Positions 11,933 to 15,319 of a DNA stretch of 64,000 nt are shown here, in pieces; within the stretch, counting starts at the first letter, position 1; each line of letters begins with the position of its first letter. The stretch is from the NCBI RefSeq assembly GCF_022538055.1, contig NZ_JAKZAM010000001.1, positions 124,001-188,000 of the forward strand, given 5' to 3'. The stretch is from Cognataquiflexum nitidum (lineage in GTDB: Bacteria; Bacteroidota; Bacteroidia; Cytophagales; Cyclobacteriaceae). The notes under the pieces were generated by a model. It saw only the letters and a list, made by a program, of their open reading frames with translations. It ran no database searches and was not told where the DNA came from. Position numbers and translations under genes: made by a program.

Positions 11933-13303
11933 TTTCCAAATATGGAATTCAGCAGGAGAAACCCTGAAACGGGCAAAACTTCCCTCATGAACACCGAGCA
12001 ATTCTGACTCCACATATTCAATAAACTTATTCTGATCGGTTTTCAGTATTTCATTAGCTTTCCTTTTGATCCTGTCTGATCCTTCTTTTGGACTCAGGTT
12101 ATTTGAGATGATCTCAGTGACAAGCTCCCTGATTTCATTTCGGTATCGGGTCCTAAATGCATCAGGTTCTCCTACTGTTTGTCTGATAGCAGCATACCGG
12201 ATTGCTGATCTTTCATAAGCCCAAATAAAAACATCCTTCAACAATTCAATCCTGTTGAGCTCATAAACCCCCAAAATCGCCTGAACATAGACCTCATTTG
12301 GGACATCCACAAAAGAAAGAGGAGACAGGTTATGTTTGAAGAAGGGAATATTTGCTGCAAGTCTCGAGGTCCTTTTGTTGACATCATCAAATGGCTGCAA
12401 ATATGGAAAATGCACCATAATGAAGAAGGCTTGCTCAAATGGATTCTGAATCTCCTTGACTTTTTGCAAGATCAACTCAAATTGGTCTGCTATCAGTTGC
12501 GGAATTGACAATGGCGTATAGGCGGATTTATGGATTCCTACCGGAATGGACCTCAGGCGGCCTATGGAATTCTGGTCCTGCAGAAGGTTATCAGCCAATA
12601 GCGCATGGAGATTTAGAATGATATAGGAATTGAATTCCAAATCATCTCCCAACTGTACCAAAAATTCTATAGCCTCTTTATGGTTGAGGATCATTTGGGA
12701 TTCCTCGATGGATTTTCCATCTGCAGATTCACCAAAATTCACCAACCTTTGAGTATCCAATAAAGAATAGGTATTTCCTTCCAATCTACTGGAATTCCAA
12801 CTCAGGTCAATCAGCAACCTGCTTAAGACCTCTTTGGCATGGGTTCCTGCTGGTTGGTTTTGATTTCCGGTTTTACCCAATTCTGTCAGTGTTTTAATTT
12901 CTTTTTCTGAGAGGTATTGGTCTACATTGGGTCGGTAAGATTCCAAAAACTGCCTGATGTAACCTACTTTTGGTCTGCTGATCAATGGTTTGGTTAATGC
13001 ATCTTTGATCTTTTTTCCTTCTTTGGAAATTGGAATTTCTTCCTTTTTTTCCACGATATACTTTGGCGGATCACTTTCTCTGACCACATTTCTTTCATAG
13101 ACCGGATGGTATTTTGTAGCTTTTGATCCTCCGCTTACATAAAGTCCCCCGTTTTCTTTTAGGATTTTAAGTCTTCGCTGTAATGTTCTTAGCTCTAGTT
13201 CAAAATCAAGATTTTCTTTGATTTCTTCCAAAGTGATTCCTTCAGGAAATTTTACCAAAATTTCCTTGATGGCATTTAGTTCTTTGGTTTTTGGAATTTT
13301 CAT
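11915..13303 (-). CDS. Fic-domain protein with N-terminal winged HTH; core motif substituted
   Basis: A 462-residue protein. Residues 1-70 look like a winged helix-turn-helix (GITLEEIKENL then LRTLQRRLKILKENGG and a wing). The Fic domain follows, with an inhibitory helix motif S171-SRL-E175-G that matches the class II (S/T)xxxE(G/N) pattern. The active-site loop reads QPFDDVNKRTSR (303-314) where active AMP-transferases have HPFxxGNGRxxR: the catalytic His is Gln and both loop glycines are changed (Val, Lys). Fic proteins normally move AMP or other phosphate groups to proteins; with this loop, catalysis is doubtful and a DNA-binding role is plausible. Its promoter is surrounded by six copies of an operator-like half-site. 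ATG start at 13303 agrees with the HTH start. Confidence 0.85.
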   Translation of the reverse strand: MKIPKTKELNAIKEILVKFPEGITLEEIKENLDFELELRTLQRRLKILKENGGLYVSGGSKATKYHPVYERNVVRESDPPKYIVEKKEEIPISKEGKKIKDALTKPLISRPKVGYIRQFLESYRPNVDQYLSEKEIKTLTELGKTGNQNQPAGTHAKEVLSRLLIDLSWNSSRLEGNTYSLLDTQRLVNFGESADGKSIEESQMILNHKEAIEFLVQLGDDLEFNSYIILNLHALLADNLLQDQNSIGRLRSIPVGIHKSAYTPLSIPQLIADQFELILQKVKEIQNPFEQAFFIMVHFPYLQPFDDVNKRTSRLAANIPFFKHNLSPLSFVDVPNEVYVQAILGVYELNRIELLKDVFIWAYERSAIRYAAIRQTVGEPDAFRTRYRNEIRELVTEIISNNLSPKEGSDRIKRKANEILKTDQNKFIEYVESELLGVHEGSFARFRVSPAEFHIWKENWSR

Positions 13304-13312
13304 TTCTTTCTA

Positions 13313-13418
13313 TTCGCGACAAATATAATATATTTTTTGTCGCGAAACTCATATTCACGACAATTTTTTTATCTCTCGCGACAATTAATTGTCGTGAATA
13401 TGGAAATTTTGTCGTAAA
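13313..13418. promoter_or_regulatory. Array of six operator-like half-sites over the Fic gene promoter
   Basis: Half-site TTCGCGACAAA appears at 13313-13323 (forward), 13336-13346 (reverse, exact), TTCACGACAAT at 13354-13364 (forward), TCGCGACAATT at 13376-13386 (forward), AATTGTCGTGAA at 13387-13398 (reverse) and TTTTGTCGTAAA at 13407-13418 (reverse). The first pair flanks a minus-strand -7 element TATATTTG (13320-13327), so binding would block the Fic promoter. The fourth and fifth abut to form a 22-base palindrome. No comparable array exists elsewhere in the window. Confidence 0.72.
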
Positions 13419-13432
13419 AGGTCAATTTTACG

Positions 13433-15319
13433 TCAATTATTGAAAACCATTCCGTCTTTTATGACGTGAAAGATTTTGATCTTTTTGTTGTCAAAAAATC
13501 TAAAAACGACAAGATCTACTTTATCATCCGGTTTTTGAAAACCGATTCCTAAAAAAGCCGCCGGTAAGACCGAGGCCATTTTCCAAGCCATCGAAAGGTC
13601 TTCTAGCTTTTTTTCAATCAGGTATTCTATGCCTTCAAGAAGGGTTTTACTTGCTCCTGCCAATAATCCATTGCCGTTTTTCAAGGATAATTTTCCATTT
13701 GGTGATAGGATTACTTCATCTCCAATATGGGTGTTGTATTCTCCGGGAGGCATTCCGCAAAACTTTGTTGCATCACTCACCAAAAAAGCTTTTTCTCCTT
13801 TAACCTTCAAAACCACTTTCAAAAATGAATCCGGCACATGAAATCCATCTGCGATCAAGCTTGCGTGAAGGTACCCTAAGGAGAGTTGATCCCAAAGGAT
13901 ATTGGGATGACGCGGAAGCATCAGCGGAACGGCATTTCCAAGATGGGTTGAAAGGCTTGCGCCTGCTTCTACTCCTTTTTCCAAATCCTCCATAGCAGCA
14001 TTGCTATGCCCAAAGGCTACTTTTATTCCATTGTCGCAACATTTTTTGATGAATGAAAATGCATTATCCAACTCAGGTGCCATGGTGATGAGCTTGATTC
14101 TTCCACCGGATGCATCCTGAAATTTGCTTAACAAATCCCAATTGGGCTTTTGGATAAATTTAGGATTATGCGCTCCTTTTGCTCCCTCTTCTGATGATAT
14201 GAAAGGACCTTCCAAGTGTATGCCTCCAATGCAGGATGCGACCAAAAGATTATTTTCGCAGGCTTCTTTGAAGGTAGATAAAATGGAGATGATAACTTGA
14301 TCTTCATTGGTAATCAGGGTTGGAAAAAAGGTAGTGACTCCTTTGCTCAATAAAAAGTCAGAGGCACTTTCGATATCCGACACAGAGAGATTTGGATCAT
14401 TGAAATCAATACCATTGACACCATTTACTTGCAAATCCACCAAACCGGGACCAATAAAAAAATGGTCATTCAACTGTTTTTTGGATGGTTTGATGCTTGT
14501 GGTAAAAAAAATCCCACTTGATTTGTAAACACTCAGCTTTCCTGTCAGGCAATCAATTCCGATAGATTCATCTTTGTCAATTGGTTCCAAAATTTCAGGA
14601 TAGGATTGGATATCCAAAAAGAGATGGCAATTGGCGTGGACTCTCAAAATTGAGGCCGGGCATTGTGTATCGATCGGACCTGAGATGGTGTCAGTGACAG
14701 CATGTCTTTTGTTTTTGCCGGGCACGACGCAACAGATATAAGCCGTGTCAAGAAGGGCGGTAATTGTCAGTGTCAAAGCATGGCTCGGTACTTCTTCCAA
14801 AGCTGAAAAGCAACCATCATTGACCTGTTGCTGCCTGCAAACCGGGTCTAACGCTACCATTTTTACTGTTTTGGAATCATTAAAATCTGCCACAGGAGGA
14901 TCATTGAAGGCAATGTGTCCGTTTTCACCGATTCCCATGCAGACCAAGTCGATAGGAGCCTGATGGAGCAAAGAAGCATACCGGTCACATTCTTCTTCCG
15001 GATTTTTGTTGCCATCAATGAGATTTATTTTCCCGAAAGGCAACTTGTCAAACAGTTTTTCTTTAAGAAAATTGGAAAAAAGTGCAGGTGAGTCCTTACT
15101 TAAACCCACATATTCATCCATGTGAAATGCGGTCACTTTTTCCCAAGGTATTTTTGAAGAATTGCGTAAAGCTGCTAAAAATTCATTTTGTGAAGGAGCC
15201 GCTGCAAAAACAATTCTCACGCTTTCTTTTTCTTCCAAAACCTTCAATATTCTTTCTTCTACTGCCTTTGCAGCAGTCTCTCCCATTTCTTTTCTTGAAT
15301 CGAATACATTGATTTCCAT
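13433..15319 (-). CDS. Fusion of glucosamine-6-phosphate deaminase and N-acetylglucosamine-6-phosphate deacetylase
   Basis: A 628-residue protein joining two consecutive enzymes of amino-sugar breakdown. Residues 1-240 are NagB-like: FHMDEYVGL (D68) and MGIGENGHIAFNDPP (H135), matching the NGH form of the deaminase active site. From about 250 the NagA deacetylase follows: small beta domain, GLVDLQVNGVNGIDF, metal Glu in IHLEGPFISSEEG, GHSNA and THLGNAV (zinc-ligand histidines), IADGFHV and LVSDATKF (catalytic Asp). NagA converts GlcNAc-6-P to GlcN-6-P, which NagB turns into fructose-6-P. No signal peptide, so cytoplasmic. It is the third gene of a minus-strand operon after a Gfo/Idh enzyme and an SSS symporter (gaps of 31 and 21 bases). 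The join is continuous, with no stop or start between domains. Confidence 0.9.
   Translation of the reverse strand: MEINVFDSRKEMGETAAKAVEERILKVLEEKESVRIVFAAAPSQNEFLAALRNSSKIPWEKVTAFHMDEYVGLSKDSPALFSNFLKEKLFDKLPFGKINLIDGNKNPEEECDRYASLLHQAPIDLVCMGIGENGHIAFNDPPVADFNDSKTVKMVALDPVCRQQQVNDGCFSALEEVPSHALTLTITALLDTAYICCVVPGKNKRHAVTDTISGPIDTQCPASILRVHANCHLFLDIQSYPEILEPIDKDESIGIDCLTGKLSVYKSSGIFFTTSIKPSKKQLNDHFFIGPGLVDLQVNGVNGIDFNDPNLSVSDIESASDFLLSKGVTTFFPTLITNEDQVIISILSTFKEACENNLLVASCIGGIHLEGPFISSEEGAKGAHNPKFIQKPNWDLLSKFQDASGGRIKLITMAPELDNAFSFIKKCCDNGIKVAFGHSNAAMEDLEKGVEAGASLSTHLGNAVPLMLPRHPNILWDQLSLGYLHASLIADGFHVPDSFLKVVLKVKGEKAFLVSDATKFCGMPPGEYNTHIGDEVILSPNGKLSLKNGNGLLAGASKTLLEGIEYLIEKKLEDLSMAWKMASVLPAAFLGIGFQKPDDKVDLVVFRFFDNKKIKIFHVIKDGMVFNN

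Follow-up and report, generated by a model that had tools for sequence, protein, structure and literature searches.

Autoregulation is familiar from type II toxin–antitoxin systems, and phd-doc is an example in which a Fic-fold locus is autorepressed through a linked DNA-binding part. According to PMC2686095, the doc operon is autorepressed by phd; fusions of helix-turn-helix (HTH) and Fic domains were noted in 2009, and their HTH was proposed to regulate fic. A single-chain protein of this kind is CccR of Yersinia pseudotuberculosis (PDB 7XUX), which consists of a Fic domain and a C-terminal HTH and is reported to repress its own promoter via two 10-bp inverted repeats located 26 bp apart (PMC9755527). 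Among the matches listed in the open-access PMC literature, CccR was the sole Fic autorepressor that we recognised and the sole Fic–HTH fusion with a measured operator at its own promoter, and no autorepressor combining a winged HTH (wHTH) with a His-less Fic domain, nor a fic operator of multiple half-sites, was recognised among those matches.

Here we consider a Fic–HTH gene in a 64,000-nucleotide stretch of the Cognataquiflexum nitidum genome (the window), which carries an array of half-sites directly over its promoter. An operator for local autorepression by the Fic–HTH protein is the best reading of this array and, judged from comparative sequence analysis, a very likely one.

The Fic–HTH protein and the array at its promoter

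The coordinates of the gene, of the protein elements, and of the promoter and half-sites are collected in Table 1. The Fic/DOC profile (PF02661) covers residues 225–318 of the protein, its 39 bits comparing with a cut-off of 24, and is matched by all 64 aligned members. These 64 rows, the window protein and 63 of 76 related proteins (L096 and L113 were left out of the 76), were used to build an AlphaFold2 model with a mean pLDDT of 85 and a pTM of 0.65. In a fold search that mainly covered residues 111–378, the Fic body of the model matched FICD and SoFic structures with Z of about 19–21. The HTH of the window protein is seen by Pfam below threshold only (HTH_11, 10.8 bits), and HTH_20 is matched by 11 of the 64 aligned members. 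The C-terminal helical domain of the 462-residue protein is missing from relatives of 346 residues. No NCBIfam match was found for the protein; in PADLOC, its Fic domain matches PDC-S04 (58 bits), and residues 142–315 match the SoFic model (PDLC03963) at 34.2 bits, a partial match that falls short of full length.

Table 1. Features of the fic locus, in window coordinates
Feature	Positions	Strand	Remarks
Fic–HTH gene, 462 aa	11915-13303	-	Winged HTH at N terminus, then Fic domain (PF02661, 39 bits) and helical domain at C terminus
Fic motif QPFDDVNKRTSR	12362-12397	-	Residues 303-314; Gln in place of catalytic His
Class II inhibitory motif (S/T)xxxE(G/N)	12773-12793	-	S171-N177 (S171..E175-G176); conforms to class II Fic proteins
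Winged HTH	13103-13291	-	Residues 5-67: H5-18, H25-31, H38-50, E54-57, E64-67; AlphaFold2 model
Recognition helix	13154-13192	-	Residues 38-50; half-site classes sort by residue 43 (R)
Half-site 1	13313-13323	+	Exact, proximal; overlaps -7-like element of Fic–HTH promoter
Bacteroidota-type -7 element TATATTTG	13320-13327	-	TAnnTTTG type; fused to half-site 1
Half-site 2	13336-13346	-	Exact; about the expected position of a -33 element (inferred)
Half-site 3	13354-13364	+	Exact; belongs to 16-bp perfect inverted repeat 13350-13365/13387-13402
Half-site 4	13375-13385	+	One mismatch; left arm of imperfect palindrome 13376-13397
Half-site 5	13388-13398	-	Exact; right arm of imperfect palindrome 13376-13397
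Half-site 6	13408-13418	-	One mismatch
Weak half-site 7	13427-13437	+	Two mismatches; covers stop codon of upstream nagBA ORF

The Fic motif carries Gln (Q303) at the position of the catalytic His in 119 of 119 aligned members and does not match HPFx[D/E]GN[G/K]R, the motif of AMPylating enzymes. The original prediction also allowed that the system may sense nucleotides or the state of the Fic loop. The class II inhibitory motif likewise occurs in 119 of 119, a count that is partly imposed because SS[QR][IL]EGNTY was among the search patterns by which 80 of the loci were retrieved. A further locus of clade B (L137), likely a pseudogene, has an in-frame TAG, and its catalytic position is occupied by D and not Q.

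A motif scan for TTCRCGACAAW fills positions 13313–13418 with six half-sites, four of them exact and two with one mismatch. By comparison, half-sites averaged 0.06 and numbered at most 2 over 2000 dinucleotide shuffles of the 150-bp region, and the six-copy array over the promoter claimed in the original prediction is thereby borne out. Across the 64 kb, matches with at most one mismatch number eight, six of them in the array. With at most two mismatches the motif is not enriched over the whole window (71 matches versus 64 expected); the signal therefore lies in the clustering at this one place. Weak half-site 7 is also found in four same-genus orthologues, and coding constraint may be the cause of its conservation.

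The finer layout differs somewhat from what was first described. The exact pair formed by half-sites 1 and 2 is present, with the −7 element overlapping the proximal half-site rather than merely being flanked by the pair. The 22-base palindrome is present too, in imperfect form (91%), and the 11-mers said to abut in it are separated by 2 bp. The perfect 16-bp inverted repeat and weak half-site 7 were both absent from that description.

In Bacteroidota the −7 consensus is TAnnTTTG. Among 29 Bacteroidota members of the family, 18 carry this element within positions −80 to −1, versus 2.06 in shuffles. A −7-like box runs straight into a half-site in 17 of the 29, a count of the fused form that stands without a shuffle control and includes three members (L006, L007, and L041) in which the −7-like match is a looser form at −13.

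Arrays and half-site letters across the family

Searching 59 genomes returned four orthologues from the same genus (97–99%), two at 67–70% from further genera within the family, and some more remote homologues. The same-genus promoters retain the array with nearly identical order and spacing, one of them (L002) with one weakened site. Over five genomes, invariant columns make up 51 of 66 in half-sites versus 24 of 49 in spacers (Fisher p=0.003). Arrays are thus present upstream of the orthologues, where their absence had been named beforehand as evidence against autoregulation.

Across the wider family, the 150 bp upstream of each gene was searched for a repeated 9-mer (at most one mismatch, both strands) and compared with 60 dinucleotide shuffles each. 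From 121 loci, copies of L003 and L007 (L038 and L039) and the likely pseudogene were dropped, leaving 118; the window itself (L001) was tested apart from these. A significant repeated half-site (p≤0.02) was found upstream of 84 of the 118 members, which are not independent trials since several loci are near-copies. In a neighbour-gene control using one upstream region per locus where available, 12 of 108 regions were significant, a positive rate of 11% that exceeds the nominal 2%; one of the 12 (L044c), judging by where it lies, seems to include part of the family gene's own intergenic array. At another locus (L116), the control region upstream of a neighbouring ORF holds seven copies resembling AATATCCAA, oriented both ways and away from the upstream region of the Fic gene.

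Members with such clusters span several bacterial phyla. Long members, resembling the 462-residue protein, pass the repeat test in 68 of 84 cases and 346-residue members in 16 of 34, the latter figure being obtained by subtraction. The individual test is failed by 34 of the 118, including L006 (p=0.08) and L007 (p=0.12), in which a motif-directed search nevertheless finds five and four sites, respectively. In clade B, a motif-directed count likewise gives 23 of 32 members with four [TG]GAGC sites, arranged as <<>> in 19. The half-site varies by subfamily: TTCRCGACAA here and, elsewhere, TATGCGCAA, GTGGCGCRA, TGAGCTRTAA, or TCCTATCA.

The spacing of the sites is regular. In the 29 Bacteroidota members, neighbours in the same orientation peak at 20 bp (18 of 44; 19–21 bp in 24 of 44), convergent neighbours lie 18–19 bp apart in 30 of 36 cases, and divergent neighbours lie 13–14 bp apart in 13 of 41 and 21–23 bp apart in 25 of 41. 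Same-orientation sites in clade B are 22 bp apart in 50 of 53 cases. Preferred spacings of this kind would fit an oligomer on DNA, and their regularity by itself suggests that binding could be cooperative.

Raw correlations of half-site similarity with similarity of the protein parts are close to one another (0.55 for the HTH, 0.52 for the Fic domain, and 0.51 for the linker). Given the Fic domain, the HTH retains a partial Mantel correlation of 0.27, which none of 999 permutations reached and which recurs in the long clade; the linker retains 0.07 (0.05 in the long clade). Given the HTH, the Fic domain retains 0.18, or 0.10 in the long clade. The closeness of the raw values and this residual Fic-domain correlation mean that shared ancestry explains much of the signal.

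Among 187 columns tested in the long clade, the best sorter of half-site classes is residue 43 of the recognition helix; taken together, the HTH columns are not overrepresented among the best sorters, supplying 6 of the top 20 compared with 55 of the 187 tested. Residue 43 is R in 58 of the 84 long members, Y in 22, H in 3, and D in 1. With core words picked after inspection of the sites, at least two TGTCGY, TGGCGC, or TGACGC cores occur in 56 of 58 R43 members versus 0 of 22 Y43 members, and at least two TGCGCA or TTGCGC words occur in 21 of 22 Y43 members versus 3 of 58 R43 members. One H43 member (L095) has the other site type, and L080 (D43), L084, and L090 were left unclassed. On the best tree of the HTH-less part of the protein, residue 43 changes four times and the operator class three times, and the starred branches force two changes. 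Well-supported branches yield just two independent pairs of residue 43 and half-site class, which are never opposed, and with so few changes (two to four) an independent-pairs test is unable to reach significance. The covariation is consistent but reflects few evolutionary events.

Probable local autorepression and its alternatives

The original prediction had proposed a search for the half-site elsewhere to define a regulon, and none emerged. The genome of the window holds seven exact copies of WTTGTCGYGAA, four in the array, and 15 of a reversed control pattern. The three exact single sites outside the array all lie within ORFs, and exact-core pairs with gaps of 2–32 bp are found nowhere in this genome outside the array. 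A regulon controlled by the Fic–HTH protein is argued against by this restriction of pairs to the array and by the position of the other exact single sites inside ORFs. In four genomes (G001–G004), the single inverted paired layout tested occurs solely next to fic; two others (G005 and G025) have zero copies of that layout, and their sites are mostly in direct orientation. The clade C pattern matches one extra place in each of two genomes. One match to it, a 40-bp palindrome with CCTATCA ends, lies away from the fic gene (G032 C1:4881325–4881364).

Autoregulation by the HTH of the Fic protein itself, as originally predicted, is well supported by features that can be read from the DNA: arrays upstream of orthologues, covariation of half-site and HTH, overlap with the promoter, and the lack of any other exact-core pair in the genome. 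Since arrays occur family-wide and their letters tend to change with the DNA-reading helix, it is very probable that the gene is turned off by its own product. We infer the binding, the repression (rather than activation), the oligomerisation, and the purpose of the loop. In the mechanism that we propose, the array would act as the operator in a negative feedback loop. The N-terminal winged helix of the Fic–HTH protein would bind half-sites of ~11 bp, and the Fic body would join several winged helices such that half-sites in both orientations are filled across the promoter, with preferred spacings of about 20–22 bp (direct), 18–19 bp (convergent), and 13–14 or 21–23 bp (divergent). Bound protein would cover the −7 element, and probably the −33 element as well, keeping RNA polymerase out; the array would thereby set the dose of the protein. 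With no other exact-core pair in the genome the loop appears to be local, and its output is then probably whatever the Fic-like domain does, not transcription of other genes.

Arrays were also sought at Fic genes with a canonical motif. A control set of 17 HPF-type Fic loci provided 15 that were usable (L019 and L026 are without the motif), of which one, L021, has a significant array, consisting of six copies of a different half-site. L021 matches the SoFic model over its full length (402.8 bits over 5–364), from which a C-terminal wHTH may be deduced. A search with the complete L021 protein retrieved 30 relatives, of which 29 were usable (L181 is without the motif), and 20 of the 29 pass the repeated-half-site test in the upstream 150 bp, in a comparison without a neighbour control of its own. 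With one array in 15 HPF-type genes and 20 of 29 in the L021 relatives, the arrays seem to be a trait of particular fusions of Fic with a winged helix and not of Fic genes generally. Some array-less HPF-type genes, for example L029, by eye seem to carry another HTH. Within the SoFic-like set (L154–L183), L167 has six exact CTAAACTAA copies upstream. The genome of the window contains four more genes like the L021 protein, on contigs C27 (two places), C46, and C48.

One proposal for the output, compatible with autorepression and not opposed to it, is that a single gene encodes a toxin or, as with SoFic, a defence protein that limits itself, the autorepressor holding some non-canonical activity of the Fic-like domain low. 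The PADLOC matches of the Fic domain (PDC-S04 and, partly, SoFic), the six-copy array of L021 together with the repeats of its relatives, and the negative regulon search in the window's own genome all agree with such a role. The replacement of the catalytic His by Gln throughout the aligned members speaks against it, as does the fact that the genus retains the gene beside nagBA, in keeping with a housekeeping function, and on balance we regard this output as rather unlikely. We propose, tentatively and with somewhat less doubt, a broader scheme in which wHTH–Fic proteins, both those with an N-terminal wHTH that lack the catalytic His and those with a C-terminal wHTH that have it, could make up a wide group of feedback modules built from one protein. 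Every such protein would control only itself via a multi-half-site array whose letters co-evolve with its recognition helix, residue 43 serving as the specificity switch in the long Gln clade. The Fic domain of the Gln subfamily might then be a sensor of a ligand or of DNA state, or an enzyme of other chemistry, and the array a dose threshold.

Other readings of the array itself are considerably less probable. The Fic–HTH protein could bind the array and activate its gene, or both activate and repress it, with distal sites aiding RNA polymerase and proximal sites shutting the promoter at high dose. The array does reach more than 100 bp upstream, beyond what simple steric repression needs; however, a half-site sits on a −7-like element in the 17 Bacteroidota members noted above, and CccR, a tested Fic–HTH fusion, is described in PMC9755527 as a repressor, and we consider activation improbable.

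The surroundings of the gene bear on whether another regulator binds the array, for example one for the upstream nagBA genes. The array lies between nagBA and fic, both on the same strand, as might be expected for such a regulator. The upstream ORF (13433–15319) is a fusion of domains resembling glucosamine-6-phosphate deaminase and N-acetylglucosamine-6-phosphate deacetylase. Yet the arrays go with the fic gene family amid unrelated neighbours. In flanks of at most 1.5–3 kb, no gene family is common to more than seven loci, the three largest groups belong to the window's close relatives, and beyond these close relatives no conserved neighbour was found except in groups of two or three loci. 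Half-sites that vary with the HTH and the lack of another exact-core pair in the window's own genome likewise argue against a second regulator, and we judge one very improbable. Slightly less probable still is that the inverted repeats are RNA structure such as a nagBA terminator, for although the imperfect 22-bp palindrome and the perfect 16-bp inverted repeat lie shortly past the nagBA stop codon, half-sites are direct as well as inverted and have preferred spacings, and L006 and L007 retain sites with no nagBA homologue clustered in their 1.5-kb flanks.

We also considered whether the family is phage or plasmid cargo. It is not characteristically mobile: 28 of 35 plasmid records are predicted to be non-mobilizable, and phage accounts for one partial match.

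Comparison with described Fic proteins

The comparison with phd-doc is one of organization, as there the Fic-fold protein and the DNA-binding part are two separate proteins, whereas the window encodes one chain. SoFic (SO_4266, PDB 3eqx and 3zcn) shares the Fic fold with the window protein (VIA-align Z 19.8, rmsd 3.1, 244 residues aligned to 3zcn_A), and genes of the SoFic type related to L021 also have repeated half-sites (20 of 29). The wHTH of SO_4266 is C-terminal as described in PMC2686095, unlike the N-terminal one of the window protein. SoFic is further reported to have the canonical HPF motif and to act through toxic AMPylation in anti-phage defence (PMC12249575), whereas the Fic motif of the window protein has Gln. 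The words transcription, HTH, and DNA-binding are absent from the main text of the SoFic paper (PMC12249575). CbFic2 of Coxiella burnetii is similarly a Fic protein with a wHTH that binds DNA, but its wHTH is C-terminal and it is an active enzyme; the portion of PMC10628234 available to us describes work on random DNA and reports no specific site.

CccR combines a Fic domain and an HTH in one chain, has the class II inhibitory motif, and has inverted repeats over its own promoter, all as in the window (PMC9755527). The original statement that no described system has this layout was therefore too strong, since CccR is a published Fic–HTH autorepressor, one with its HTH at the other end and with two inverted repeats in place of an array (PMC9755527). 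The differences from the window protein are nonetheless several. The HTH of CccR is C-terminal whereas the winged HTH here spans residues 5–67 at the N terminus; CccR has its catalytic residue, H192, and is a T6SS effector active on FtsZ, whereas the window protein is without the catalytic His; and the operator of CccR has two repeats with a 26-bp spacer, compared with six or seven half-sites and several inverted pairs in the window (PMC9755527).

The negative regulon search suggests that these Fic–HTH proteins act as effectors that limit themselves and not as transcription factors of the ordinary sort. Comparative genomics here provides operator sequences for many His-less Fic members, together with the half-sites of each subfamily, the spacings they favour, and a residue that is a candidate for specificity; how this large and uncharacterised class of proteins is regulated thereby becomes directly testable. 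Relative to CccR, what is new is the N-terminal wHTH, the lack of the catalytic His, the multi-site array, and the broad comparative basis.
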